The notes beneath the pieces are model-generated. The model did no database searches. It saw only the letters and a program-made list of their open reading frames with translations, and was not told where the DNA came from. A program made the position numbers and the translations under genes. Of a stretch of 64,000 nucleotides of DNA, positions 2,743-34,550 are shown piece by piece. Positions within the stretch are counted from its first letter, which is position 1; the number at the start of each line of letters is the position of its first letter. This DNA comes from Candidatus Hodarchaeota archaeon (GTDB lineage Archaea > Asgardarchaeota > Heimdallarchaeia > Hodarchaeales > Hodarchaeaceae): contig JAEOTC010000031.1 in the NCBI GenBank assembly GCA_016840035.1, positions 1-64,000 of the forward strand, read 5' to 3'.

Positions 2743-4965
2743 TCATTCTTTGAATTTAAGTGTTAACTGATCCACTAGTTCTTCTCGTCTTTGTGTTAAC
2801 CGTTTTTTCTTTTTATTCAGTCGTTTAACTATTTCTTCGTGTTTCTGATCAGACACTTCATCATTTAGAAATTTCTCATCCGCTTTTTCTAACGAATCTT
2901 CAACTTGCGCTAGCTCAGCATCTACTACATTGAGCTCTGGATGGTTGGTTGGGATTCCATTTGGATCATATTCGTACTGATCAGAACTGACATCTGGTTC
3001 TTGTTTTTGTTTATCTTTTGGGCCTAAGGTAAATGTTTTAGTAATTACTTTAGGACCTACAACCTTTTTAGCCTTAGGCGAAGGTTTTTCGCTTTTTTTA
3101 CTCTTTCGTTTGCTTTTAAGCTCCTTATCACTTAGAGATTCAGTCTCACCGAATATAAATCCTTCTCGTTCTCCCTCAGAATCCGTTAGCAGTAGATTGG
3201 GCATGTCTCCTTCAGAGAACAGAGATTCAACTTGATCTGTGAATAGACGATCAAATCGTTCCTGAGCCATCAGAATTTCTTTCCGAGCTTCCTCTAAATC
3301 GATCTTTTCACCCTCTTGAATTTTAATTCCAAATACTTTGACAATTTCACCTGCAGGAGTTTCTAAGACTGAAACAAAAGGTGTTTGCACGAATGAGTAA
3401 TCTGGAGTGTCTAATACAGTAACAAGTCCTCCAAACACTTTAACGTATTCTCCGACACCTTTAATCTCCACAACCTGAACAAATCCTCCGAGTATTTGGA
3501 CTAAGTTTATTCCGAGCCTTTCAAACACAAAAACCCCTGGAAGGCGGACTAGAGAATAGTCTTCAGTTTCCGTAATTGTATATTTTGAAGGAGTTGAGTC
3601 AAACACTGACGAAAAGAGTCCTTCCGGTCCTTTCCAACTCTTCAATTGAGAAATAGCTTGTTTTGCTTTATCAAATAATTCGGCCGTCGATTCAAGTCCC
3701 GCGGTAACCAATTCGTCTTCGGTTAGTTCGTCTATTTGTTTGGGTTTCAGTTGAAGTTTTATTTGGTCCCACTCTTCAGGAGGAACCCAAATAGTTGTAG
3801 TACCGTCGATTTCCTTTTTTGATGTCTCCTGTTCCTCTGATTCTGTTTCAAGTTCTGATTTACCCATTAATACAAGAGTTGTCCCTTTTTCCGAGACAGT
3901 CGGTATAGCAATGGTACCTTTTTTAGCTGAAACAGAAGTTTTTCCTTTGCTAATAATCTTCATATCATCTGTGGGTATAGTGAAAACCCGTTCTGGTCTT
4001 TCATAAGAGGTTTCTTGAATTGTGGTGGCAAAATTATTAATTGTACTGCCAACTTGACTATTAGGATCAACAATTTTGCCAGTTAGAGAATTTAGAACAG
4101 AGCTAAATCCATTGGTTTTTTTCTTTTGGGGGGTTAGGAGGAGGAGGACTCCAATAATGAGTAAGAAGAATGCCATATATTGAATTACATCTTTTTGGTT
4201 ATCAATCCAGCCTAACCATAAAAATAACAATAGTATAAAAGCAGATGAAAGAAATCCATCCCGAACCCTTTCTATTCTGCTTTTCAGCGCGAAATTTTCA
4301 CGAAGTAGAGTATTAATTGAAATATTCTGCCTAGGTGTGGTACCTGGAATAATAATTCCAATAATATTCAAAATTAGAGCAGTTATTAAAATTATTTCGA
4401 GTTCAAGTGTAATACTCTCTGGAATAATGAGAACAGAAAGACCTAGTAAAAGAAAAATTACTAGAGTTGCAATCCAAACCCCACGAAGAATTTCACCCAC
4501 ATAGTGCAGATAACCAAAGTGTAGAGATTGCAGGTCAAATCTGTTCCAAATGATCGCTAGAGGAACAAGAAGACATGCTGTGAGCGATTCAAATTCAGAA
4601 TAAGAAATGTCTGGAAAAGTGGTATCCCATAATTCAAAAGTTACCGTTCCAGTTGAAAAAAAGTTAATGATTAGAAATGCTATGAGTATTTTCATCGCTC
4701 TATTAAGAGGGGAAGGGATATCCCGTTCATCATGAGAAAAGATCTTTGAAACTGGAATTACGAAAAATAAAACAAGAAGAAAGCCAAATAAAGTGGCTCT
4801 TATGGCCGAATCACCGGAAAAGATAACTGCAACAATGCACCAAAAAATAAGTATAAGAGTAAAGATATAATCTAAAGGCGTTTTCGGTCGAAGAAATTCC
4901 TCCGTTTGATCAAGTGCAAAGCTCTCTAAAGAACCATATTTCTGTAATTTTTGAATATTCTCCAT
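2743..4965 (-). CDS. Multipass membrane protein with cytoplasmic beta-repeat region and charged coiled-coil tail
   Basis: A 740-residue protein I do not recognise. Residues 30 to about 290 hold eight or more hydrophobic segments that look like transmembrane helices. After a Ser/Thr/Glu-rich linker, residues around 470-570 form a run of short repeated strands (for example FVQVVEI, YVKVFGG, FVSVLET, IVKVFGI), probably a small beta-solenoid or barrel. The C-terminal 120 residues are Lys/Glu-rich and end in a predicted coiled coil. An AGGAAAG ribosome-binding site precedes the ATG. A minus-strand TATA-like box and an inverted repeat lie about 180-200 bases upstream. A sensor or membrane-scaffold role is possible but unproven. 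Confidence 0.75.
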   Translation of the reverse strand: MENIQKLQKYGSLESFALDQTEEFLRPKTPLDYIFTLILIFWCIVAVIFSGDSAIRATLFGFLLVLFFVIPVSKIFSHDERDIPSPLNRAMKILIAFLIINFFSTGTVTFELWDTTFPDISYSEFESLTACLLVPLAIIWNRFDLQSLHFGYLHYVGEILRGVWIATLVIFLLLGLSVLIIPESITLELEIILITALILNIIGIIIPGTTPRQNISINTLLRENFALKSRIERVRDGFLSSAFILLLFLWLGWIDNQKDVIQYMAFFLLIIGVLLLLTPQKKKTNGFSSVLNSLTGKIVDPNSQVGSTINNFATTIQETSYERPERVFTIPTDDMKIISKGKTSVSAKKGTIAIPTVSEKGTTLVLMGKSELETESEEQETSKKEIDGTTTIWVPPEEWDQIKLQLKPKQIDELTEDELVTAGLESTAELFDKAKQAISQLKSWKGPEGLFSSVFDSTPSKYTITETEDYSLVRLPGVFVFERLGINLVQILGGFVQVVEIKGVGEYVKVFGGLVTVLDTPDYSFVQTPFVSVLETPAGEIVKVFGIKIQEGEKIDLEEARKEILMAQERFDRLFTDQVESLFSEGDMPNLLLTDSEGEREGFIFGETESLSDKELKSKRKSKKSEKPSPKAKKVVGPKVITKTFTLGPKDKQKQEPDVSSDQYEYDPNGIPTNHPELNVVDAELAQVEDSLEKADEKFLNDEVSDQKHEEIVKRLNKKKKRLTQRREELVDQLTLKFKE

Positions 4966-5188: not shown

Positions 5189-8100
5189 TTACTCTATCCC
5201 TTTAGGACTTTGACAATAAACGCAACCATCTTCTTCGACTTCTGAAATATTTATGAATGCTCCACACTGACTGCATACGATCTCATCTTCAGAGAGTGAG
5301 TCCTCTTGGGAAAGTAATGGTTGGATTTTTGGCGTGTTGCCATTGGTAAAAATTTCAGCCCTTTCTAACTCTACAATCTCATCAGTAGTAACGATTGATG
5401 AAGAGATCTTTGAAGCAATTTGTTCTTCAGTTTCCACTGCTTCAGAGCCCTTTTGACTGTTCATTAATGGTTTAACAGTTTGAGAATCTAATACTACATT
5501 AACCTCGATTTCTGTCTTTTTCTTACGGACTTTCTTCTTTGGCCTAGGTGATTTCGGGAAGTTGAAGATTGCATCCAAAGATTGCGTTTTCGGTCTGGTC
5601 TTTCTTCTCTTGTTTTTTTGTACTCTTGTCTTTGAAGTTATTGTTACAGGTCTGGGTGGTTTTTTTGTTTCTTTTGTGACAATAGAACTTCCTCCAGAAT
5701 CAGAAACCTCTTCCAAAACGGTTTCGGGTATATTTTGCTTTTCAGCTTCTTTAATATCCTCAAGATTGAGGGTTCTTTGAGATCCAGATTGAATCTGCTG
5801 ATTTTTCATAGGAAATCGGATCATTCGATCATAAATCCGACCAGGATCATAAATATCTTTTAAATACTGTTTAGTATCGACTAATTGCTTGATATCTTCT
5901 ATTGAAGTAAGTTCATTAAGCATAAAACTCAAAGTACAAATACCATGTTTGATGAAGACTGATTTAACTTTATCAAAAGCGAAATCAAATACTTGGGCTG
6001 GGATGACATGATTTCCTTTAATGTTAACCATTTGGATACGAATACCAGGATCAATAGAATAGCCGAGATCCTTTAAAATGTAAGCAGCAGTCACTTGAGG
6101 TAATTTCGATTTATATTCTCTTAGATCTTTATTGATAGCCTTTGGTTTGACAAAATATGAAGGATCAAGGTTCCCTCCTTCAACCTCAGTTCGGATTCTG
6201 TCCGAAGCTTTGAATGCATTTTGATATATTTGTTCTAATGTAATTGGGTTCTCTGGATGGTAATCTTCCAAATATGCTTTTATGATCTCTTCTTGAAAGT
6301 GTTTTTGAAGTTTGGAAAAATCAGCCCTTTTAGATTCTAAACCAGTAATTTCCTCCTCCTCCCACTTATTATCCTGTTTTAAATGATTGTAAACAATATA
6401 TTTCTTCTTCCCCATAACAAATTGGAAGTCATAGGGGCCGTCTTGTTCGAATTGTATTAAACTCTTACTTGTACGTTTAATTGTGCTACCATCATTTAAC
6501 CAGTAGTTATCATTTTTGAATCCGGCCTTAACAACTTTTTCATTCAAAATCTTATCGATGAGACTAACTTTGAAATATATTTTTTCATCCATTTCCGATG
6601 GATTACTTAAAGTAACTTGAAAATCAAGGGGGAAATCTTTGGGAACCCATAACCAGACCCCATCCGTATCCAACTCTGTAACCATTCCAATAGATTCTAA
6701 TTGATTAGCAACCCAGTGAATTAAATCCGCAGATAACTTAGTTGTAATTCCAGCGCATGGTGTACTCGCATTTCGTACCCCTGCACGCATGCCAAGAAGA
6801 CCATAGACAGAATTATGAACTCCAACATATGCATGACCTGCAAAAAATCGTTCCGTCTCATCTACAGAAATATCATACACAAATTCTGGTGTTTCAATTT
6901 CAACAATGGATTTAATGTGATCAAACCAAATACTTGAGTCTACTATTTTTGATGTATGCCCCTTTTCTTTGAATAATCCAATAGACATGTTTTTTGAATA
7001 ATTAACAGGAATCCAAGCACTCGGTACCAGATCTAGACTTGTTTTCCTTAACAAATAATCGAATTCTGCGACACCCTCTATAGACTGTAAGATTTTGATC
7101 CGAAATATCGGATAATTGGTTCCAGTCTCTTCTTTGATAGTGAACTGATAGACCGATAATTGTAGTAATAATAATGGAAGGTCAACGAAGGCCAATCCAT
7201 CGCTTATAGTGGAATATCGAATAAATTTGTTCTCATAATCGATAGTACCATCGCCAGCTATTAAAGTTTGCAAAAACTGAATTTTCGCTTCATTAGGTAG
7301 GTTAAATACTAAGTTTGGAATTCTTTTCGTCTTCGAATCATCACCAATACCAAGAGAATCGAGAATAGAATATGCAACAGCATTATTTGATTGAACATAT
7401 ACAACAGTAGAGTTTTTGTTATCGGATAAGGTAGGATCGCCAAATATCGAAGCACATTGAATCATATCTTGAATTATATCTTTATCGTTATTACACACGT
7501 TAACATCATATGAATTCCTTTGAATTCTTCTATAGCCTTCGCTAACATAATAACCTAGATATCTAGCCAACTTTTCAGTTGGGACTAGAGGCTTTAGAAA
7601 TTGGCCACTATAGTGTCCAACCTCCCATTCTTGAAAGACTTCATTAGGGATAAACTGAATGAATTCAATTACATCTATTAATGGTACATCATATGACTCA
7701 GTGTGATGATTTCGTTTAGCTTTTTTTATTATTATCTCAAGGAAACTCAAGTAATTCTCTGATCGTTCATTCGTTGAGTAATATTTCCCATCATCTTTAA
7801 TAAAATCATATTTGACTAGTCTTTTTGCGTTCTTCGTAGCAGTTCTTGGGTCAGAAAATATTCTTTTTATTTCTTTATGGGCAGTTTTAGTTTTTGATTC
7901 TACCAGTTTAGAGAGAATCTTAATTTCCGTTTTCCATCTCTTAGATATAAAATATCCTCCCCTTACTTTTAAAATGAGATTAATATTGTTTTTTATGAGA
8001 ACAGAGGGATCTATCAGTTTTATTAAATTGATCTCAACGGATCGATATTTGGAGGGCACGGGAGGAAATAGCTTGGGGATCACCAGCTTCTCTCCTCTTT

Positions 8101-11100
8101 TTAATTCAGCTCCTCTTCTTACAACGATATCCTGATTGTCTTCTACAACGAAAACACTATGATCTTCGGTTACCTTCACCTTTCTTCCGTTCTCGGTTGT
8201 AACCAAAAACGATTTATGACTAGTTTTATGTTTAAAGACATGAGTGATATCTTTAATTTTAATTCTCCCAGAATTATCAAAGGTAAAAGTTTTAATTCCC
8301 TTCTTAATTGAGTTTGATAGAATTTCTTGTGAGTGTAAATTTCTATTTACGAAATCACCTATCTTTACCGGTTGAATACCTTTTTCATCAATGATTACTA
8401 TCGGTTCATCATAAAAGATAGAATTTAGCGGAACTTTCATTCCTAGTTGCGTACTGTCGTGGAATTTCTGCTGACGAAGCATATCTGGTGGGACTGGTTG
8501 ATTAGCCATGCTTTTCTGTTGGATGACCTGTTTTAGTCTTTGAGCCTCAAATTTATGTCTCACTCGAGTAATAAAGAAGTCGTCCATAATCCGAGCTACA
8601 AAATTAAATGCTTTCTGACAAACACGTGATTGTACAGATATGAGGACAGTAATCTTTTTTGTCCGAACATCAATGCTTAGATATGTATTCTTAGGAAGAT
8701 GGAAATCATCAGGTTGATCTTCAAAAATATCAAAATGGTTTTTATCTAAATGAATCCCTAGTTGTGTAGCATCAACTGTTTGATTTAGCCATCTTTTAAT
8801 CTTTTTAAAAGGATCGATTGAGGTTGAGTTCTTCCCTAAATATGATTTACCTAGTGGAATCTTTATTAATCCTGATTTCTTCTTCAATCGATAGGCCTGT
8901 GTCTGCTTCCCATTGTAGGTAAGAATTTCTTGAATTCGTCCAAAAGTAGCTTCTTCAGGTTCATATTCTTTACATGTTGATTCATTTTTGGTTGTACAAA
9001 TAGAGGGATCACATTTGGAGGAACCTTTAATTCTATGTTTACAAGGCCTTCGAGCTGTTAGTTTGATCACCCAATCTCCTTCAAAAAAGCAAGAATCATC
9101 TTTTTCACGATGTTTACATTCTTTGCATTTAGATAAGGGGACTATTCCAGATGGTTGTAGCTTATATTGCCGTATTTGTGAGGGGTACATAGATGTGACA
9201 TCTACATGCACACCCCTCATTTGAACAGGACCAGTTGTTTCAATTAATTTTTCAACTTGGCTGAGTGTCTCCTGTACAACATTCTCAACCCCCTCAGTTT
9301 GAATATTTGCAAGATCCTCCAGAATTCCACGTAATAGATCATTTTTTTCTTCAAAAAGTGATTCTGATACCCCATTTTTTTTCAAAGCTACCTTGAAATT
9401 CTTGAGCAATAATTCAAGATCATCTGTATAGGAGAGTGATAAATCACCAAATTTTTCAAGGATTCTTCTCTCAAATTGATTTTTCATTTCCCTTTTGGCA
9501 ATATCTTTACTGTTCTTAGTAATAATATCTTGAATAAGTGGTTTAAGTTCGATTAAAGAATTCTTATCAGGTATGAATTCAGTAAAAATATCACTACGGA
9601 ATATACCTGATCTTCTAGCCTCAACTAAACCTCCTGTGTAGGCAAATGAATCAATCATCAAGTTAGGTGAGAACGATTCAATGTACTTTTGTTCAATACG
9701 TCTCCTACCAACAATGTTAAAATGATGATCCTCGGCATCTATGAGTAAATCATCCAAAGATCCCGCACGACGAGTTAAAAGTTCTGATGATGGGACAGGA
9801 AACATTTGACCTAACGAAATGAAAAAATCTAGAACGATTTCTTTAACATATCTATAGGTTATGTAACCATCACAGGCAGCATAGCCAACTGCATCAACAG
9901 GACTTTCCTCGATCGCAAATAAAGCTTCTCGGCCAATCGGAATAATTTTTAACTTTTTCTCGACGCTTGGTTTCAATCCTAAATCTTTTTTTGGTAAATA
10001 GCTATACTTCTCATTGAACAAATATGCATCAAGATGAATTACTCCTCCACCAGCAACAGAGTCGATACTTGCAGGGGAGTAATTTTGTCGAAGATCAATT
10101 TTACCTTTATCTTGTCCATTGGGTTGACGTTTATATTTGATTTTAAATCCAGTCCTCCTCTCTAGTGAAATATTATAGTTGGAGGAGCGAACTGCTAAGA
10201 ATGGTATATCAAAGCGATCACCAAAAAAATCTGCGATAATATCAGGTTTATAATCCTCTATTATTTCGTAGAATCTGTGTAGAAGCTGTTGTTCAGTTTT
10301 AAAAATCTTTAATTCAACAGGAACACGTTCTATTATAATTTCAGACGGGAGTTCAGTACCAGTCTTACACCAATCAACCCACGGTTTTGAATGATCCGCG
10401 TCCTTTTGTTTCAGGATAATATCAATTCCTGAAACATCTTTTGTTTCTACAACCTCGTCATTAATTATCAAATGATTAGTTTCACCTGTAAACAACGAGA
10501 TCATTGAAATTGCATCACGATTTGGATTTGGTTCACGAGTTTGATCAAAGACAGTCTCAATATCATAGGCAAGAATTCGAAGTTCAGGAGGAGCTTTATT
10601 TCGAAGAATTTCTATTTGGTGGATTTGCCCACCACTAATGTCAGCTTGATACCACGATCCAACCCTAATGTTATGATCAATAGCAACTCTGTGGTTATAG
10701 AGAACATCCGCTTCACGCCACTCGACAACACCTTTGATTTTCTCGCACTGTGACCTTAAACTTGGTACAGAACGAGGATGGTCAACTGTAACCTTTAAAA
10801 AGTCTTTTTTGACAAGGAAGGTAAGATCAGCCGCATCGTGACACACTTCTTTCGAAACTGCAATGACCTTATTTTCTCCCATTTCCTGAATCTGGGCAAT
10901 TATGCGGTTGATCTGATTGGATTGTAAGGCAGGAGCTATCAGGAGGTAAAAGTAAGGAGCATGCCTTAAAAACGCACTTCGTTTATTATGTTGCTCATCC
11001 AAAAAATATATCTGAATTCCATTTATTATTTTTCTATTAGCTCTCGTAGAGTATGTATCATCGCTATCAAAAGTAGATTCATAGGTTTCATCTTTCCTAC

Positions 11101-11218
11101 TAGTAGCTTCGTAGTCCAAGATAAAGATAGGTTGGTTTACCTGTTGATTATAAAGATAAGGCTGAAACCATGAGCGATAACCTTGACTTACCCAACGATC
11201 TTGCCCTGAACTAGCCAT
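5189..11218 (-). CDS. polB: Family-B DNA polymerase, epsilon-like, with intein
   Basis: This is a 2009-residue precursor, about 1472 residues after removal of the intein (933-1469). Proofreading exonuclease motifs are DIE at 219-221, GDRFDIPF at 334-341 and YAACD ending at Asp450. Polymerase motif A is DVTSMYP (Asp673). Motif B (KVPLNS then VYGLLG) is split by the intein. Motif C is ELDTDGVW (Asp1517, Asp1519), followed by a KKKY box near 1604-1607. ELDTDG and KKKY/KKRY are typical of eukaryotic DNA polymerase epsilon. Cys698, Cys701, Cys710 and Cys867 reproduce the C-X2-C-X8-C plus distal Cys pattern that binds an Fe-S cluster in that enzyme. Extra cysteines lie at 726, 736, 741 and 749. A Lys-rich linker leads to a C-terminal zinc ribbon (Cys1982, 1985, 1999, 2002). 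Role: probably replicative DNA synthesis; the neighbours give no further clue. Confidence 0.95.
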   Translation of the reverse strand: MASSGQDRWVSQGYRSWFQPYLYNQQVNQPIFILDYEATSRKDETYESTFDSDDTYSTRANRKIINGIQIYFLDEQHNKRSAFLRHAPYFYLLIAPALQSNQINRIIAQIQEMGENKVIAVSKEVCHDAADLTFLVKKDFLKVTVDHPRSVPSLRSQCEKIKGVVEWREADVLYNHRVAIDHNIRVGSWYQADISGGQIHQIEILRNKAPPELRILAYDIETVFDQTREPNPNRDAISMISLFTGETNHLIINDEVVETKDVSGIDIILKQKDADHSKPWVDWCKTGTELPSEIIIERVPVELKIFKTEQQLLHRFYEIIEDYKPDIIADFFGDRFDIPFLAVRSSNYNISLERRTGFKIKYKRQPNGQDKGKIDLRQNYSPASIDSVAGGGVIHLDAYLFNEKYSYLPKKDLGLKPSVEKKLKIIPIGREALFAIEESPVDAVGYAACDGYITYRYVKEIVLDFFISLGQMFPVPSSELLTRRAGSLDDLLIDAEDHHFNIVGRRRIEQKYIESFSPNLMIDSFAYTGGLVEARRSGIFRSDIFTEFIPDKNSLIELKPLIQDIITKNSKDIAKREMKNQFERRILEKFGDLSLSYTDDLELLLKNFKVALKKNGVSESLFEEKNDLLRGILEDLANIQTEGVENVVQETLSQVEKLIETTGPVQMRGVHVDVTSMYPSQIRQYKLQPSGIVPLSKCKECKHREKDDSCFFEGDWVIKLTARRPCKHRIKGSSKCDPSICTTKNESTCKEYEPEEATFGRIQEILTYNGKQTQAYRLKKKSGLIKIPLGKSYLGKNSTSIDPFKKIKRWLNQTVDATQLGIHLDKNHFDIFEDQPDDFHLPKNTYLSIDVRTKKITVLISVQSRVCQKAFNFVARIMDDFFITRVRHKFEAQRLKQVIQQKSMANQPVPPDMLRQQKFHDSTQLGMKVPLNSIFYDEPIVIIDEKGIQPVKIGDFVNRNLHSQEILSNSIKKGIKTFTFDNSGRIKIKDITHVFKHKTSHKSFLVTTENGRKVKVTEDHSVFVVEDNQDIVVRRGAELKRGEKLVIPKLFPPVPSKYRSVEINLIKLIDPSVLIKNNINLILKVRGGYFISKRWKTEIKILSKLVESKTKTAHKEIKRIFSDPRTATKNAKRLVKYDFIKDDGKYYSTNERSENYLSFLEIIIKKAKRNHHTESYDVPLIDVIEFIQFIPNEVFQEWEVGHYSGQFLKPLVPTEKLARYLGYYVSEGYRRIQRNSYDVNVCNNDKDIIQDMIQCASIFGDPTLSDNKNSTVVYVQSNNAVAYSILDSLGIGDDSKTKRIPNLVFNLPNEAKIQFLQTLIAGDGTIDYENKFIRYSTISDGLAFVDLPLLLLQLSVYQFTIKEETGTNYPIFRIKILQSIEGVAEFDYLLRKTSLDLVPSAWIPVNYSKNMSIGLFKEKGHTSKIVDSSIWFDHIKSIVEIETPEFVYDISVDETERFFAGHAYVGVHNSVYGLLGMRAGVRNASTPCAGITTKLSADLIHWVANQLESIGMVTELDTDGVWLWVPKDFPLDFQVTLSNPSEMDEKIYFKVSLIDKILNEKVVKAGFKNDNYWLNDGSTIKRTSKSLIQFEQDGPYDFQFVMGKKKYIVYNHLKQDNKWEEEEITGLESKRADFSKLQKHFQEEIIKAYLEDYHPENPITLEQIYQNAFKASDRIRTEVEGGNLDPSYFVKPKAINKDLREYKSKLPQVTAAYILKDLGYSIDPGIRIQMVNIKGNHVIPAQVFDFAFDKVKSVFIKHGICTLSFMLNELTSIEDIKQLVDTKQYLKDIYDPGRIYDRMIRFPMKNQQIQSGSQRTLNLEDIKEAEKQNIPETVLEEVSDSGGSSIVTKETKKPPRPVTITSKTRVQKNKRRKTRPKTQSLDAIFNFPKSPRPKKKVRKKKTEIEVNVVLDSQTVKPLMNSQKGSEAVETEEQIASKISSSIVTTDEIVELERAEIFTNGNTPKIQPLLSQEDSLSEDEIVCSQCGAFINISEVEEDGCVYCQSPKGIE
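6812..8422 (-). mobile_element. Intein with LAGLIDADG homing endonuclease inside DNA polymerase motif B
   Basis: The insert spans residues 933-1469 of the polymerase precursor, 537 residues. It begins with Ser933 (SIFYDEPIVI) and ends with His1468-Asn1469, followed by extein Ser1470. The splicing block B TEDH lies at 1017-1020, and the C-terminal blocks are near EFVYDISV and AYVGVHN. Two LAGLIDADG-type motifs, LGYYVSEG at 1221-1228 and LIAGDGTID at 1319-1327, mark a homing endonuclease. The flanks join to a normal KxxxNSxYG motif. All splicing residues expected of a Ser1/Asn/Ser+1 intein are present, so it should be active. The site is one commonly occupied in archaeal B-family polymerases. 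Confidence 0.95.
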
Positions 11219-12467: not shown

Positions 12468-15002
12468 TTGTCCTTTGAGTTAAAATCCAATATCGCCCTT
12501 AAACGGCATAGAAATTTTGCTTTAAATCGTATAAAGGATTTAATCAAGATTATCAGGAGGGAGAAATTCGGTAGTTTCAACACCAAATGTTCTTATCCTC
12601 CATTTTGGGAAATTCTAATCCTACAATTTGTCACAGTATTGCTAATCGAAATAAAAAATATCAATAAGGTGTTAAACCATCAATTTGAAAATTGGAAAGA
12701 AGTATTTGAAGAATTTAATGATCCAGTTTCTATTATAATCCAATTGAAAACAGTATTACCAATTTTGAAATCGCAGCATTGTCTAACTGCCGATTACTTA
12801 GGAAATAAGAATGAGTATCAACCAATCTTGAGGAATATTCCATGGGCTATCTATGCCGAGAGGATTACTGGAAATCACAAAATTGTGAGAAATTATATTT
12901 CTCTATACGACTCGAGTGATAATTCTCTAACCTTTGAGATCTTGGATAAATTACCTTCATTATTGAAAAGTTTTGACCACATAGATATCAAGAAATATGG
13001 AAGAATCTACACTCCATACTACTTAGCAGAACAGATTACAGAAAAAGCAATAAACCAATGGTATGATAATAAATTAAATCATAATCCAAGAAATGAGAAG
13101 AATTTGTGTCTTTCCCTGCTTGATCCTACCGTTGGAACAGGAACATTTCTTATTGCGGCAGGAAATATTCTATTCTCTAAGTTAAATAACAGCTTGACTG
13201 AGGAGACACCTTTAACGATTAAGACTGATATTGTAGAGAATTACATTTTTGGTTATGATAGGGATCTGCTAGGTATCGTGATAACCAAAATTAAATTGAA
13301 TTTGTGGATGTTAGATGATATCATCTCAATTTCTGAAGATCAGTTAGACCTAAATGATAACATTTTTCATCAAGATTCATTATTTGAGGATACAAAATCA
13401 GAACAGAATAGAGAAAGCCCGAAAATTTTCATTCTACCTTCCAAATCACGATTTCGTGATAGAATTCTTGACATCAATACGTTAGATTCAGAAATGAACA
13501 ATTGGTCGAATACTCACTATTTTATTATTGAAGGAATATTGCAGGATTGGAATGAGAATAAATCGCTTTTAGAACCCAATTCTAGTAAAAGGGTTTATTT
13601 TTCTGCTTCTGATTATTTTAATCCTACTAATTACACTTATATTGTTTTTCCAGACGGATTTCAACAAGAGAAATCACTTTCACTCAATGAACTCACTTTT
13701 TGGAGTTTTTTAGAAGCAGTTAATGAAAATAAAAAGAAACCCAACATTAAATTTGATATAATCATCGGAAATCCTCCTTATATAGCATTAACAGATTTAG
13801 CTATGATAACACGGTTATATCTCAAACTTTCATTCCGTAAAATTTATGATGGAAATTCTGATTTATCGTATTTCTTTATCAGAAGAGCTCTGCAATTTCT
13901 AAACTACAAGGGAGTTCTAGGGTTCCTGTTACCGAAAGCTCTTATTTCGAGTGTTCATGCACAAAAAATAAGGAATTATTTTTCTGAAAAAACACAAATT
14001 CTTGAGATCCATGATTTTGGAGATTACATGATGTTTCCCCAAATCAATATCAAAACATGTTTTCTCTTACTGCAAAACCAGAGTAGGGAAGAAAACAATT
14101 TTCTATCTGCCTATAAGTACTTTAAATCAGATCGATTGTATGTTAAGGAATTAAAAATTACACAAGACCATCTTAGGTCCGAAAAATGGATCTTAATATC
14201 GAGTTCAAAGATGGAAATCATCAGAAAACTCAATAGAATTTCACCTCATAAATTGAAAGACATCTCAGTGATAAGCAAAGGAATTGAGACGGGTTGTGAT
14301 GAAATTTTTGCACCTAAAACTCCCTACTTTTTCTCTAAGCATTTACGACTTGAATCATATGAATTTAAGCCATGGCTAAAAGGAAAGGAAATAAAACCCT
14401 TTACTATAGCACGTACAGGGAGAGAAGTTTTATATGCTCCAAAATCACAACAGGATCAGGTCAAAAAGTCCACAAGAGCTTATGAGTATCTCAAAGAACA
14501 TCAAAATGAATTAATGAACCGAAGTAGAGTGTATAAGTTCTATTTATGGAGAGAAGGAGACGAACGAAACACTATGGATTGGCAAAAAACCAAGATTGTC
14601 ACTCCATATAAAGGAAGTAGAAATTCATTTGCCATAGACAATCAAGGATGTCTTACCTCAAAGGATGTCGTATGGATCATCCCAAACAAGGCCTATTGTA
14701 GTAATGAAACCTTGCTAGTTCTGATTTCATTATTAAACTCATCGACCCTTACTTTTTACGCCCGTTGTACATTTAAAGATCTAGGTGGAATGTATGATTT
14801 CTATCCAGTTCAAATACAGAATTTTCCGATATTAATTCCTCCTGCAAAATCTCAAGAATATCTAGACCTAGTTTTCTTAGCAAAACAAGTATCTGCTCGT
14901 GAAAGTGTAAATAATCAGGGATTAATTCACGAAATAGATAAAATTGTGTATAAAATCTATGATTTGACTCAAAAAGAAATTTTAGTGATTGAAACTTCCT
15001 AG
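12468..15002 (+). CDS. N6-adenine-type DNA methyltransferase (Eco57I/type IIG-like)
   Basis: An 844-residue protein starting at TTG with GGAG eight bases upstream. Methyltransferase motif X is near IYTPYYLAE (180-188), the AdoMet-binding motif I is DPTVGTG at 219-225, and catalytic motif IV is NPPY at 435-438. The long spacer between motifs I and IV and the roughly 350-residue C-terminal part, probably a target-recognition domain, resemble Eco57I/type IIG or BREX-type enzymes. I see no convincing PD-(D/E)XK nuclease motif in the N-terminal 170 residues, so it may only methylate. It converges with a second methyltransferase 22 bases away. Role: modification of genomic DNA, possibly for defence. 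Confidence 0.9.
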   Translation: MSFELKSNIALKRHRNFALNRIKDLIKIIRREKFGSFNTKCSYPPFWEILILQFVTVLLIEIKNINKVLNHQFENWKEVFEEFNDPVSIIIQLKTVLPILKSQHCLTADYLGNKNEYQPILRNIPWAIYAERITGNHKIVRNYISLYDSSDNSLTFEILDKLPSLLKSFDHIDIKKYGRIYTPYYLAEQITEKAINQWYDNKLNHNPRNEKNLCLSLLDPTVGTGTFLIAAGNILFSKLNNSLTEETPLTIKTDIVENYIFGYDRDLLGIVITKIKLNLWMLDDIISISEDQLDLNDNIFHQDSLFEDTKSEQNRESPKIFILPSKSRFRDRILDINTLDSEMNNWSNTHYFIIEGILQDWNENKSLLEPNSSKRVYFSASDYFNPTNYTYIVFPDGFQQEKSLSLNELTFWSFLEAVNENKKKPNIKFDIIIGNPPYIALTDLAMITRLYLKLSFRKIYDGNSDLSYFFIRRALQFLNYKGVLGFLLPKALISSVHAQKIRNYFSEKTQILEIHDFGDYMMFPQINIKTCFLLLQNQSREENNFLSAYKYFKSDRLYVKELKITQDHLRSEKWILISSSKMEIIRKLNRISPHKLKDISVISKGIETGCDEIFAPKTPYFFSKHLRLESYEFKPWLKGKEIKPFTIARTGREVLYAPKSQQDQVKKSTRAYEYLKEHQNELMNRSRVYKFYLWREGDERNTMDWQKTKIVTPYKGSRNSFAIDNQGCLTSKDVVWIIPNKAYCSNETLLVLISLLNSSTLTFYARCTFKDLGGMYDFYPVQIQNFPILIPPAKSQEYLDLVFLAKQVSARESVNNQGLIHEIDKIVYKIYDLTQKEILVIETS

Positions 15003-15024: not shown

Positions 15025-17511
15025 TTAAGCAAGATAAGAAAAATCAGTTTGAGCTTTTTCAATACGCGTTCTTACAGTTTGTTGTAGTGTTTCATGCATG
15101 TGGGAAATTTCTTTATCTGAAAAATGACATAAAGTCTTGAGAAATCCATCTAATTCTTTTTTGGATTTAGGAGAGACATTTCTAATAAAAGAAATGGGTT
15201 CTAAAGTAATTACTTCTTGGAATGTAATCTCAAGAATTGAACTCAATTTCTTGAGAGGGGGAATTGGTATTTTTATGTCAAGATATTCATAAACTTTTAC
15301 ATCTAGTCCCCCCTCTCCCAAGTTACTCCTCCCAAGTAACTCAAGTTGCTGAGAAACGAAAACAGTATTAAGATATAAAAACAGAAACATCATAAGTTCG
15401 AAAGAATCTGGAATATCGTCATTCTTAGGAGTAATGCCATAAAATCTGGCATCAAAGTAATAATTCATGGGATTGTAAAAGAATGGATAACGATCATTAA
15501 TAGTCATTATGCAAAGTAAAGGACAATTCTTAAAATATTCCTTTGGTAAGGAATACCAGAATTTACGACTTGCGCAGGTTGTTCTATAAGCAAAAGATTC
15601 TCTCCCAACAGGTTTCCATGTTTCTCCCCAAGTTATGTAACTTCTGACTCCTGGGTGAAGTTCTGACTTTTTCTTCTTGGGTATCAACAGTACGATATAA
15701 TTTGTCTGTTCTTCATTAATACTAAACCCAGACACTTCTTTAGGAGATTTAATCAAATGATTTGGTGTCCAGAGATCAAGTTCTTTGTTATCAGGTAAAC
15801 TGAAATTTATCTGATCTTCAGACTTCTTTTCAACTGGATGCATCCAGTATTCCCTCTCTATTACAAAAGAATCAGCTTCAAGCAAAAATCCTTGTCGATT
15901 TAAATCCTCAAGTATATTTTTATCTTTGGGAGTTAACCACAAACTGGCATCATTTGAATTTATTGAGGAATCAAAGTATTTATTCGATTTTCCAGGTTTT
16001 CCAAGATAAAAAAAGTCATTTGCACCACTAGTGAATCCTCTACGAACTGATGTGAAATCTTTAAGATGTTTTAACTTGATTTTAGTGTTTTCCAAGAATT
16101 TCAAATAGAAATCAGGAGCCTTTGCGAATATTCCCCACTTAGGTTCCAATAAAAGCTTGTCTTCCTGAATAGAAAAGAACACACCATCTTTTATCTTAGT
16201 AAGCGTCTTTTCAACTCCCAGAGACGTAATGGTGGATAGATCCTCTTTGGAATTAACCCATAAAAACTTTATTTTGTGAGTAGAGGTATTTAGCGTTAAA
16301 CGTTGTTCTTTACTCTTAAACCTAAGAGAGACTATGGCAGTGTTCACATCAACCGAAGGAATCAGCTTTTTTAAGCGTGTAGATACAATTAGATCTATAT
16401 AAAAATATTCTACAAGAAATGTTTGGAGCATGGAACCATACTTAACATCCATCCATGAATTTGGGACTATAATTCCCATTGAATCTCCTGGATTTAGAAA
16501 TTCTGAGAGATAGAGGATAAAATAGATGTACAAGCTAGATTGACCAGAAATCTGGAGAGACTTAAATCTCTGTTTAAAATCTGAAATAATTTTAGTAGAC
16601 ATAATCTTCTCACGAATGACTTTTTTCTCCTCAGTAGATATTAACTCCTGACGAGTATATGGAGGATTCATCAAAACAGAAATAGGAGTCTTCGCACGTT
16701 GATGTAAATTGTCTAAGATCTCTTGACAAGTAAATAAATCTTTATTGTAAACACGAAAATTATTTGGTGTTTGATTAAATTTACTAAAAACTGTTAGGGC
16801 AGTTTCACAAACAAGTGAAAGCACTGGATCCTTTTCTATAGCAATAATTGTCTTTGTAGAGGACCCGCTAGAAGAGAAGAGTAATTCCAAGGTACGAAGT
16901 AGCATAACACCTGTACCAGCAGCAGGGTCGATAATGATATCAGAATCAGAGACTTTACATTGGTCAAAAATAAAATCCACAATTGGAAGTGGAGTAAAAA
17001 CTTGCCCTTGGATTTGCATTTGGTCTTGTTCAATAATTCTATCAAAATAGTACGGTAATTTCATCTGAGTGTAGTAGTCAACATTCGAGCTGTTCTGTTG
17101 TATATATTTAAGACATAATTTTGAAAGAAATTCATCCCTGCTGAAAAGATCAATGATTGATCTCAGAGGAAAAATTGGGGATTGGAATAATGGCAAATCA
17201 TGGTTTTTTTCTAGAATTCTCTCTAATATTCCAAAGATCTCACTGTCCCCAATTAAGTCTTCCTTTTCAATCGTTTTCAATCCTATGTTTAATAAATCAT
17301 AAATTAGAACTGAAATAAGAGTGGAAAGGGATTCCAAGTATTTTTCTTTGATATTCTTTTTATTAAAATTTGAATAAATTTGCAAAATATCATGTAGGGT
17401 CTGATTGGAGCTTGTAGATTTTATCAATTCGGTTATTATTTTAAGGATAGCAGGTGAAACTTGCTGTATAAAGTCAGAAAAGGGATCCTTTTCTCTAAAA
17501 TTCAATTTCAA
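15025..17511 (-). CDS. Second N6-adenine-type DNA methyltransferase
   Basis: An 828-residue protein. Motif X is near VFTPLPIVD (171-179), motif I is DPAAGTG at 195-201, and catalytic motif IV is NPPY at 282-285, so the motif order is that of N6-adenine enzymes. The N-terminal 150 residues are helical and the C-terminal 400 residues probably recognise the target sequence. It is only distantly similar to the convergent methyltransferase, so it is not a recent duplicate. The glycosylase gene lies just upstream on the same strand with 14 bases between, which suggests co-transcription. No nuclease motif is recognised in it or beside it. Confidence 0.9.
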   Translation of the reverse strand: MKLNFREKDPFSDFIQQVSPAILKIITELIKSTSSNQTLHDILQIYSNFNKKNIKEKYLESLSTLISVLIYDLLNIGLKTIEKEDLIGDSEIFGILERILEKNHDLPLFQSPIFPLRSIIDLFSRDEFLSKLCLKYIQQNSSNVDYYTQMKLPYYFDRIIEQDQMQIQGQVFTPLPIVDFIFDQCKVSDSDIIIDPAAGTGVMLLRTLELLFSSSGSSTKTIIAIEKDPVLSLVCETALTVFSKFNQTPNNFRVYNKDLFTCQEILDNLHQRAKTPISVLMNPPYTRQELISTEEKKVIREKIMSTKIISDFKQRFKSLQISGQSSLYIYFILYLSEFLNPGDSMGIIVPNSWMDVKYGSMLQTFLVEYFYIDLIVSTRLKKLIPSVDVNTAIVSLRFKSKEQRLTLNTSTHKIKFLWVNSKEDLSTITSLGVEKTLTKIKDGVFFSIQEDKLLLEPKWGIFAKAPDFYLKFLENTKIKLKHLKDFTSVRRGFTSGANDFFYLGKPGKSNKYFDSSINSNDASLWLTPKDKNILEDLNRQGFLLEADSFVIEREYWMHPVEKKSEDQINFSLPDNKELDLWTPNHLIKSPKEVSGFSINEEQTNYIVLLIPKKKKSELHPGVRSYITWGETWKPVGRESFAYRTTCASRKFWYSLPKEYFKNCPLLCIMTINDRYPFFYNPMNYYFDARFYGITPKNDDIPDSFELMMFLFLYLNTVFVSQQLELLGRSNLGEGGLDVKVYEYLDIKIPIPPLKKLSSILEITFQEVITLEPISFIRNVSPKSKKELDGFLKTLCHFSDKEISHMHETLQQTVRTRIEKAQTDFSYLA

Positions 17512-30962: not shown

Positions 30963-33900
30963 TTGGTACATATCAAAGAAATTAGGATGACCGGTTGGAA
31001 ATCATATGGACCCGGTACTGTCCGAATGCCTCTTGCGAAGGGATTTACGGTTATTGTTGGGCCAAATGGGAGTGGAAAATCCAATTCTATTGATGCTGTT
31101 AACTTTTGTCTAGGTGCTCTCTCTAAAAAGAGTATGCGAGCAGATAAGATGGTAGGCCTCATCTATAACGGAATTGGAGGCAAAAGAAAGTCAGAAAAGG
31201 CATTTGTTGAAATTGTTTTTGATAATGCTGACTTTGCCATCCCTATAAGAGAAAAAGAAGTTATTGTAAGTCGAGAACTAAAAACCAATGGCTCAGGAAC
31301 TTATAGACTGAATGGTAAAAGAACCACTCGGACTGATATTTTAGATAAACTTAGAATTGCAGGTATTGATGTCGTTAATAGTTATAATATTATTGCTCAA
31401 GGGCAAGTCGGCGAAATTGTTGGAATGAATCCAAATGAGCGACGCCAAATGATGGAAAATCTTGCTGGCGTCGGCCAATTTGATACGAAGAAGCAATCTG
31501 CTCTATCAGAATTAGAAGAAGCAAATAAGAGAATGGATGAGCTTCAGCTCCTTGTAAATGAAGTCGCAAAGCGTGTGGAATCTCTTCGAAAGGAAAAACA
31601 AGATGCTGAAAGGTGGAGTCAACTAGACTCTGAAATTTTAAATCTTAAGGCCCTCCTAATTTCATATTCATTTCACACCAATAATCGGGCATTGGTAAAG
31701 TTTGATGAGGATATTGCATCAATCCGCAGTAATCAGGAACAATTTGTAACCGAGCGATCACAGATTGATACAAACGTAGAAGAAGTCACCGAGAAAATTC
31801 GGACCCTTGAAGATTCATTAATTCGTGTTGAAACTTCACTAAAGGAGATCAGGACTTCCGCAGAAGAAAAGAATATTGAAAAAACAAAAGTTCAGGAAAA
31901 GGCTGAATATAATAAAAAGACAATTAAATCGAATGAGAAACGAATAAAGCAGTTAGAATCACGTTCTGAAGAAATTCAGAAGAAAATTGAAGATGATAGT
32001 AATACGAAAGAGGAACTCTTACAGAAAAAAGACGAATTAGTCGAGCGGATAGAACAGATTCAAAATGATAGAACTTCTCTTGAAGAGGATCTTGAACTAA
32101 AAAATCAGGAATATGACGAAATCAAGGGAGAATTTGAAGACGGAGAGAGACGTTTAAAGATTGAAAATGATAGATTAACAAAAACTCAGGTCTCCTTTGA
32201 AGTATCACAAAATATGGTTAATGCTTTTCAAAATAATGTTGATGAATATCAACGACGGCAATCAGAAGCAGAAGAACAGATTAAATCAGCTTCAGAAAGA
32301 GCTGAAGAACTTAAGATTCAAATTGAAGAAGAAAATACTCAACAAACAGAAGCATCTGGGAAATTAGAGGAAATCGAAACTAAAAAATTGAATTTAGAAA
32401 CTCAAATTGAGAATATCGATGATCAGGTAAGAGAATTAAGTGACAAACAACTAGTTTTAAAGGCAAAAATTGAAACGATATCTTCCTTCGTTAAATCAGA
32501 AGCAGGAAAAGAGAATCCAGCGGTATCCTATATTAATGGGAAGAAAAATGATGGCAATATTGCTGGAGTTCTTGGTGAATTCCAAAATTTGTCTGATGAA
32601 GGAATTACTCTTCCTCCAGAAGTTGGCCATCTGTCTGATGCAATAATAACTGATACCATTGAATCTAGTTTAAACTGTATAAATCTTTTAAAAGAACATT
32701 CAATAGGTGCTGCGAATTTTATTCCTCTTGAAAAATTCAAACTTAAAAAAACTGATAATTTCTCAAATATAGTGAAGAAAGTTAGAGAACAGAATCAAGT
32801 CGTTACATCATTATCAGAAGCTGCTAATCTTTGGAAAAAACATAGTTCCACTTTATCAACCGCTGATGGTGACATTTTTTACTCGAACGGAATAATTTAC
32901 GGAGGATTTCATCTACTTTCTGCTCAAGCCTCCGTTGATTCGCTTGATTTAGAGATGGGCCAAATCACTTCTGAACTTGAGGAATATAAATCTAAGTTGA
33001 AAGAAGAAAAGGAAAACCAGAAAAAACTTCTGGGAATAGAAAAAGTGATTATTTCCTCAATAGAGAAACTCGAAAAAAGTATTCAAGGAGCTACTGTTCA
33101 GCTAAATCAACAAGAAAGTGAAATTAAACTATATACCGAGAATCAACAGAGTATTGAGGGTGAACTTGATCCATTAAAGCAAAAGCTTGAAGAACGTTTA
33201 TTGGAAAGGGATAAACAAAAACAGGAAATGGATCACCACGAGCAGAATCTTGAAGTTATCGGGGAAGAAGTAAGAAGTATTGAAGAGAGACTAGAAGCTG
33301 CAGATACAAGACCGTTATTAGAGAAAATGAATCAAATAGAACAAAAGTTAGGAAAAAGTCAAGGTCAGTTAAGTGGTATCGATTCAAGAATCGAAAGTCT
33401 CGAAACACAGAAAGAAGAAAGATCTGGGCGTTTAACTGAGACAAAAACTGAAGTTAACACAATCAAGGTTGAAACAGCTAATTTAGAAGGAGAAATTCAA
33501 GTCCTGCATGAACAAGTTGATCAGTTTAATTCCGATTTAGAAAAGATTCTAGAAAATGAAGAATCTCTCTCGACAGAGATAAAGGATTATAAATCCGATC
33601 TATCAACTCAAAAGAAATACCAAGGACAATTAATCAAGGATAAGGAACGATTAAATGAAAAAATCTCGAAAGATGAGGAGAAAGTAACTGAAATCAAATT
33701 ACAACGGGAACGAATAGCTGTAGAAACAGAAAAATTACAGAGTGAGGCATTGGATTCACAGATAGAAATTATGCCAGAAGATGCAGAAGAAATACAAAAA
33801 GTAAACGAGCAAAAAATTAATTCTGAAATAAATCGAAAATCAGATGAAAAGAAACGGCTAGAACCTGTAAATATGCGTGCTTTGAAGGAATTCCAATCAG

Positions 33901-34550
33901 AAAATTCAAGATACATAGAATTACTTGATCGACGTGACATATTAATTGAAGAACGTCAGGTTATTCTTGATTTTATCGAGGAGATTGAAACAGAGAAGTA
34001 CTCCGTTTTCATGAAAGTTTTTAAATCTGTTAACAAGCATTTCGGTCAAATTTTCAATGAGCTCTCGGGTGGAGATGCAAGACTCATACTTGAAAAAGAT
34101 CCTAAGAAAGGAGAAGATATTTTTGAAGGGGGTCTTTTTATTGAAGCTCATCCCGCAGGAAAAAAGATTGCATCTTTAGAAAGTATGTCAGGTGGAGAAA
34201 AAGCTCTCACTGCATTAGCGTTTATTTTTGCCGTTCAAACAGTTGATGCTCAACCATTCTACATTTTAGACGAAATTGATGCAGCTCTTGACCCGATGAA
34301 TGTACGAAGAGTAGCGAAACTATTATATCGAATGTCTAGGAGTGTTGGTAGAGGAGGAGAGGAAGAAGAGGGGAAAAAATTACGGAAAAGTGCAGCTCCA
34401 GCGGCTCAATTCCTTGTCATCAGCCACAGGGATATTTTAATGGCATGGGCTGACAGATTATATGGGTGTACAAACGTTAAAGGCCTAAGTTCTGTTTTCT
34501 CAATTCAAATGAGTGAAGATCAACAATTAGAAAGAGATCAAGCATTTTAA
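30963..34550 (+). CDS. smc: Chromosome segregation protein SMC
   Basis: A 1195-residue condensin ATPase starting at TTG. Walker A is GPNGSGKS (33-40). Two long coiled-coil arms flank a hinge at about 525-680. The ABC signature SMSGGEKAL lies near residue 1075 and Walker B YILDEIDAALD near 1100. A short acidic insert (GGEEEEGKK) lies in the C-terminal head. The protein loops and compacts chromosomal DNA as a homodimer closed by the kleisin ScpA. It is followed 11 bases later by scpA, clearly one operon. Length is normal for the family. Confidence 0.97.
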   Translation: MVHIKEIRMTGWKSYGPGTVRMPLAKGFTVIVGPNGSGKSNSIDAVNFCLGALSKKSMRADKMVGLIYNGIGGKRKSEKAFVEIVFDNADFAIPIREKEVIVSRELKTNGSGTYRLNGKRTTRTDILDKLRIAGIDVVNSYNIIAQGQVGEIVGMNPNERRQMMENLAGVGQFDTKKQSALSELEEANKRMDELQLLVNEVAKRVESLRKEKQDAERWSQLDSEILNLKALLISYSFHTNNRALVKFDEDIASIRSNQEQFVTERSQIDTNVEEVTEKIRTLEDSLIRVETSLKEIRTSAEEKNIEKTKVQEKAEYNKKTIKSNEKRIKQLESRSEEIQKKIEDDSNTKEELLQKKDELVERIEQIQNDRTSLEEDLELKNQEYDEIKGEFEDGERRLKIENDRLTKTQVSFEVSQNMVNAFQNNVDEYQRRQSEAEEQIKSASERAEELKIQIEEENTQQTEASGKLEEIETKKLNLETQIENIDDQVRELSDKQLVLKAKIETISSFVKSEAGKENPAVSYINGKKNDGNIAGVLGEFQNLSDEGITLPPEVGHLSDAIITDTIESSLNCINLLKEHSIGAANFIPLEKFKLKKTDNFSNIVKKVREQNQVVTSLSEAANLWKKHSSTLSTADGDIFYSNGIIYGGFHLLSAQASVDSLDLEMGQITSELEEYKSKLKEEKENQKKLLGIEKVIISSIEKLEKSIQGATVQLNQQESEIKLYTENQQSIEGELDPLKQKLEERLLERDKQKQEMDHHEQNLEVIGEEVRSIEERLEAADTRPLLEKMNQIEQKLGKSQGQLSGIDSRIESLETQKEERSGRLTETKTEVNTIKVETANLEGEIQVLHEQVDQFNSDLEKILENEESLSTEIKDYKSDLSTQKKYQGQLIKDKERLNEKISKDEEKVTEIKLQRERIAVETEKLQSEALDSQIEIMPEDAEEIQKVNEQKINSEINRKSDEKKRLEPVNMRALKEFQSENSRYIELLDRRDILIEERQVILDFIEEIETEKYSVFMKVFKSVNKHFGQIFNELSGGDARLILEKDPKKGEDIFEGGLFIEAHPAGKKIASLESMSGGEKALTALAFIFAVQTVDAQPFYILDEIDAALDPMNVRRVAKLLYRMSRSVGRGGEEEEGKKLRKSAAPAAQFLVISHRDILMAWADRLYGCTNVKGLSSVFSIQMSEDQQLERDQAF

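Follow-up and report, generated by a model that had tools for sequence, protein, structure and literature searches.

Eukaryotic leading strands are made by DNA polymerase epsilon (Pol epsilon), in which an active and a dead polymerase are fused, and the usual archaeal polymerase is PolD. The source of Pol epsilon is one of the unsettled questions about how the eukaryotic replication fork originated. The closest described systems in archaea are the B-family polymerase (PolB) group B10 of Kazlauskas 2020 (PMC7544198) and the epsilon DNA polymerase of Hodarchaeales of Eme 2023 (PMC10307638), and the affinity of this group to Pol epsilon has already been published (PMC7544198, PMC10307638, PMC12198294). 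The DNA analysed here, referred to as the window, is a stretch of 64,000 nucleotides from contig JAEOTC010000031.1 of a Candidatus Hodarchaeota archaeon, and it encodes a polymerase of this kind, which bears on that origin.

The window polymerase belongs to B10. It has the glutamate preceding LDTDG in motif C (E978, invariant) and a single C-terminal set of four cysteines (Cys4), the latter a reported trait of the group (PMC7544198); it is a sister of the N-terminal half of Pol epsilon; and its ortholog in B3_Heim shows the expected occurrence in Heimdallarchaea of the B3/LC3 lineage. Since the enzyme falls in an already described group, its likeness to Pol epsilon is not in itself new. What is added is the conservation of a cofactor site, a second cysteine set, inteins, and the loss of a PolD catalytic residue across the order. 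The features of the gene are as follows.

5189..11218, minus strand: precursor of a B10-type (Pol epsilon-N-like) DNA polymerase, 2009 aa with the intein and a predicted 1472 aa once spliced
10556..10564, minus strand: ExoI catalytic D219-x-E221 (DIE), both residues nearly invariant in the B10 alignment
10199..10231, minus strand: ExoII region DFFGDRFDIPF, residues 330-340, from the sequence and the B10 alignment
9182..9202, minus strand: motif A DVTSMYP, residues 673-679, with the polymerase metal-binding Asp673
9089..9127, minus strand: first three putative ligands of the CysX motif, C698-x2-C701-x8-C710
8621..9088, minus strand: palm insertion of 156 aa that separates CysX cysteines three and four and occupies the P-domain position of Pol epsilon
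8972..9043, minus strand: second four-cysteine set, C726, C736, C741 and C749, within the insertion
8618..8620, minus strand: fourth putative CysX ligand, Cys867 (in SRVCQK), with the Asn of motif B following 65 aa later
8423..8437, minus strand: N-extein half of motif B, KVPLN, residues 928-932
6812..8422, minus strand: intein, 537 aa, residues 933-1469, with Ser at both junctions, an HN end and a LAGLIDADG-type domain
6800..6811, minus strand: C-extein half of motif B, SVYG
6653..6676, minus strand: motif C, ELDTDGVW
6398..6409, minus strand: KKKY motif
5558..5590, minus strand: KTQSLDAIFNF in the low-complexity tail, resembling a clamp-binding (PCNA-interacting peptide, PIP) motif, a putative function
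5213..5275, minus strand: C-terminal Cys4 (CSQCGA...GCVYC), residues 1982, 1985, 1999 and 2002

Relationship to Pol epsilon and distribution

When the single sequence was compared with solved structures in the Protein Data Bank (PDB), the top matches were all Pol epsilon, with E values from 6e-50, against 3e-11 for archaeal PolB; a profile of 11 B10 orthologs gave 2e-91 for Pol epsilon, 4e-28 for archaeal PolB and 6e-11 for Pol delta. A tree of 19 sequences, which did not include G3, a bacterial group also reported to be epsilon-like, joins B10 and human and yeast Pol epsilon in one branch with 100/100 support, and this branch stays after long branches are removed. Trees constrained to place B10 with the other archaeal PolBs are rejected by the approximately unbiased (AU) test (p 8e-7), as are those that place Pol epsilon with delta, zeta and alpha (p 9e-24). 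The eukaryotic letters in the tree came from PDB alignments, with rows that follow the PDB records as printed; the yeast epsilon row lacks the P-domain, and that of alpha is limited to the palm. We conclude that, among the prokaryotic polymerases sampled, the encoded enzyme is the nearest relative of Pol epsilon's active half.

A sequence-only reading of the window had proposed this affinity, as opposed to one with PolB1 or PolB3, and the tree bears it out. The motifs on which it relied, ELDTDGVW in motif C, KKKY and GDRFDIPF in ExoII, are all present in the translation, and an exonuclease domain does precede the palm (Pfam PolB exonuclease, E 1.8e-24). B10 and the N-terminal half of Pol epsilon share the exonuclease and polymerase motifs, ELDTDG[VI]W and an identical CysX spacing, with the B10 insertion at the P-domain position. 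The correspondence holds for this active half only: in contrast to Pol epsilon, B10 has no fused inactive second half, the extein stopping about 200 aa past the thumb, and no CysA/CysB, the single C-terminal Cys4 being all that is found there.

The claim that an epsilon-like catalytic half exists in an Asgard lineage is likewise upheld by orthologs, whose contigs carry the names Heimdallarchaeota B3_Heim, MAG_8 and Hodarchaeota YT2_004/YT2_065. Together with Eme 2023, these names suggest that the order concerned is Hodarchaeales. Identity to the B3_Heim ortholog reaches about 76% in the best segment, and the window enzyme resembles the described Hodarchaeales polymerase in its motif C glutamate, its one C-terminal Cys4 and the inactivated PolD alongside, but differs in having an intein in motif B. 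Among the 228 Asgard genomes searched, B10 is present in 13 of the 14 from the order, covering three genera and two families, the exception being a 1.4-Mb assembly. It was found in none of the 214 others, apart from weak generic PolB matches in one genome (G002). A lokiarchaeal homologue has been mentioned (PMC12395588) but was not seen in this set, where that weak match is the sole one outside the order.

Cysteine sites and the intein

In human Pol epsilon the four CysX cysteines hold an iron-sulphur (Fe-S) cluster, of the [4Fe-4S] kind, that is required for DNA binding, and the presence of iron is established (PMC9581978); the motif is described as unique to Pol epsilon in the literature that we found. 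All four cysteines are invariant in the 11 aligned B10 sequences, and the B10 profile aligns them with those of Pol epsilon. The first three lie at +25, +28 and +37 from the motif A Asp in all seven B10 enzymes measured and in human and yeast epsilon, and the fourth lies 64-65 aa before the motif B Asn in B10, compared with 66 in human epsilon. In the window enzyme Cys698, Cys701, Cys710 and Cys867 stand where the sequence-only reading had put them, and a DNA pattern of motif A, 18 residues and C-x2-C-x8-C has a single match in the window and none in 100 shuffles. The motif A-CysX pattern occurs in 13 of the 228 Asgard genomes, exactly the B10 carriers; all 13 have the complete site with Pol epsilon spacing, and it is absent from the 214 others and from the viral contigs. 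The B10 CysX site therefore probably binds an Fe-S cluster, to judge from spacing and conservation. The most obvious shared character named so far is the motif C glutamate (PMC7544198); a spacing-perfect cofactor site is a stronger one.

The cysteine inventory of the earlier reading was correct for these four residues but overlooked both the C-terminal Cys4 and a second set in the palm. The interval between the third and fourth CysX cysteines is 153-165 residues in B10, against 83 in human epsilon, and within it C726, C736, C741 and C749, at about +53, +62/63, +66 to +70 and +74 to +80 relative to the Asp of motif A, are invariant in B10 and absent from Pol epsilon. These residues probably give the insertion a second metal or cluster site. 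It lies at the P-domain place in the palm and may adopt a P-domain fold, here in an archaeal host. Neither this extra Cys4 nor a B10-wide CysX is reported in the main texts on B10 that we found, supplements and Feng et al. 2025 (Nat Ecol Evol, Asgard replisomes) aside, and priority for the CysX finding is not certain.

Residues 933-1469 form an intein, which interrupts motif B as KVPLN/SVYG. The region matches the Pfam families Intein_splicing (2.6e-23) and LAGLIDADG (1.3e-5) and has nucleophiles at both junctions and a C-terminal HN; its splicing from the precursor is predicted. The earlier reading overlooked this 537-aa element; its motif assignments stand, and residue numbers past 932 differ from those of the mature enzyme. 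The best PDB match, spanning 936-1469, is PI-PkoII (E 1.3e-34); the intein matches this and other PolB inteins (2cw7) over its full length but, unlike them, has a Pol epsilon-like host. In a sister genome (L008:12941-14269) a 443-aa intein instead lies in motif C (ELD/TDGVW), whereas the B10 genes of L005-L007 have none. As the two inteins sit at different sites, it seems that inteins entered the B10 gene on two or more occasions.

PolD, the replicative role and origin

Inactive PolD has been noted for the B3/LC3 lineage (Kazlauskas 2020, PMC7544198), and our data extend this observation to the order. The large subunit DP2 was recognised by its N-terminal domain in 12 of the 14 genomes. As in other archaea, it has all three DP2 Pfam domains and a near-normal length, complete reading frames mostly being about 1,106-1,170 aa. 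The match to the catalytic domain, however, ends at about 204-251 of 299, compared with 291-299 in intact DP2s from other members of the class. Wherever the motif NCDGDED could be read uninterrupted in those other members, it is intact; in the order it is replaced by CNG, CSG or worse. All 11 genomes of the order that could be read have lost the equivalent of P. abyssi Asp956 (to Asn, Ser or other residues), and some that of Asp958, leaving the order DP2 without the full catalytic pair D956/D958 of PolD (PMC4996933). Along its length DP2 is nevertheless 46-72% identical within the genus, which argues that a non-catalytic role has been kept. The small subunit DP1 is present in 10 of the 14 genomes, its phosphoesterase motifs partly kept (GNHD changed to GEHD or GERD); it was not found in the incomplete assembly of the window's own genome. 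Elsewhere in the class several DP2s are interrupted, it appears by inteins. In L093-L095 and L098 the catalytic-domain match breaks at about profile positions 175-190 within unusually long reading frames (1,350-1,750 aa), a pattern suggestive of inteins at or close to the active site of PolD.

Since DP2 is retained but its catalytic Asp is lost, B10 probably serves as a main replicase, and the dead PolD as a scaffold; with this loss running across the order, takeover of archaeal replication by an epsilon-like enzyme becomes a concrete hypothesis. We consider it likely that B10 is a proofreading, Fe-S-containing replicative sister of Pol epsilon-N that took over from PolD. The intein would splice itself out of motif B and leave a 1,472-aa B-family enzyme that proofreads and has the complete set of exonuclease and polymerase motifs, the Fe-S-anchored palm insertion would clasp the DNA in the way suggested for Pol epsilon, and the SLDxIF-like motif of the tail, a counterpart of which also occurs in the window's own genus, would bind the clamp. 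Synthesis would have passed from PolD to B10, with the dead PolD as scaffold. More tentative, and less likely than not, is the full picture of an archaeal replisome in which an active, Fe-S-stabilised, P-domain-bearing epsilon-like core, with a second metal site in its clasp, works beside a dead but retained PolD. If true, B10 and the dead PolD would be a two-chain counterpart of eukaryotic Pol epsilon.

Could a simpler account suffice? An ordinary archaeal PolB1 or PolB3 with convergent motifs has next to no probability: motifs A, B and C are common to all of family B, but with the sequences sampled the grouping with archaeal PolBs fails the AU test, and the match to Pol epsilon is better by tens of orders of magnitude. 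The CysX-like cysteines might instead hold zinc as a structural site, as C4 sites often do, and the protein has other Cys4 sets, the C-terminal one among them. We think this improbable, since their position and spacing are identical to those of the four Fe-S ligands of Pol epsilon, in which iron is established (PMC9581978). An accessory role in repair, with another PolB replicating the genome, is somewhat likelier but still doubtful: there are three other PF00136 (PolB-family) genes in the genome, two with an intact motif C (YGDTDS), which are possible replicases. Weak arguments against it are the full proofreading domain of B10 and its near-universal presence in the order, coincident with the loss of the PolD catalytic residue. 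Other observations count against a replicative Fe-S enzyme with a P-domain, beyond these polymerases and the ability of C4 sites to bind zinc. B10 has neither the inactive-half fusion nor the CysA/CysB domain of Pol epsilon, and the tree covers no G3 bacterial PolBs. The profile of the insertion has no significant PDB match, and AlphaFold models of L006 residues 8-1207, from an ortholog that lacks the intein, and of its palm region (655-1110) reach a mean predicted local distance difference test score (pLDDT) of only 31 and 32, most likely because the inputs held only about seven close alignment rows.

The evolutionary reading, as distinct from the biochemical one, faces a stronger competitor. 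B10 may have been acquired horizontally, from proto-eukaryotes or a mobile element, bringing the Fe-S site along, and then would not be the vertical ancestor of Pol epsilon; we give this a substantial chance, somewhat short of even. Confinement to a single order favours it, transfer has been argued by Forterre 2025 (PMC12395588), and mobile elements were allowed as a source by Kazlauskas 2020 (PMC7544198). No viral relative of B10 was found, however, by protein pattern, by CysX pattern in IMG/VR contigs or by tblastn against phage records, and the one hit to a motif C pattern (L103) encodes EFDTDGMW in an unrelated small protein; the gene neighbourhood is stable across the window's own genus; and B10 forms a deep, monophyletic group next to the two eukaryotic sequences. 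The tree goes no further than sister groups, and inheritance may have been vertical or by transfer.

A separate PolB of the window's own genome (L003, C253) has a degenerate motif C, GIVDSIW, and looks like an inactivated PolB2-type protein.

Gene neighbourhood

The surroundings of the B10 polymerase gene are kept across the genus. Its conserved neighbour, which adjoins it in all own-genus loci examined, is the following.

2743..4965, minus strand: 740-aa protein without a Pfam match

Near the polymerase lies a convergent pair of Eco57I/N6-methyltransferase-type genes (12468-15002, plus strand, and 15025-17511, minus strand). The pair is kept in relatives but has diverged beyond its neighbours, with about 50% identity in close relatives and 30-40% further out. 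The window also encodes an SMC-family ATPase of 1,195 aa (30963-34550, plus strand).
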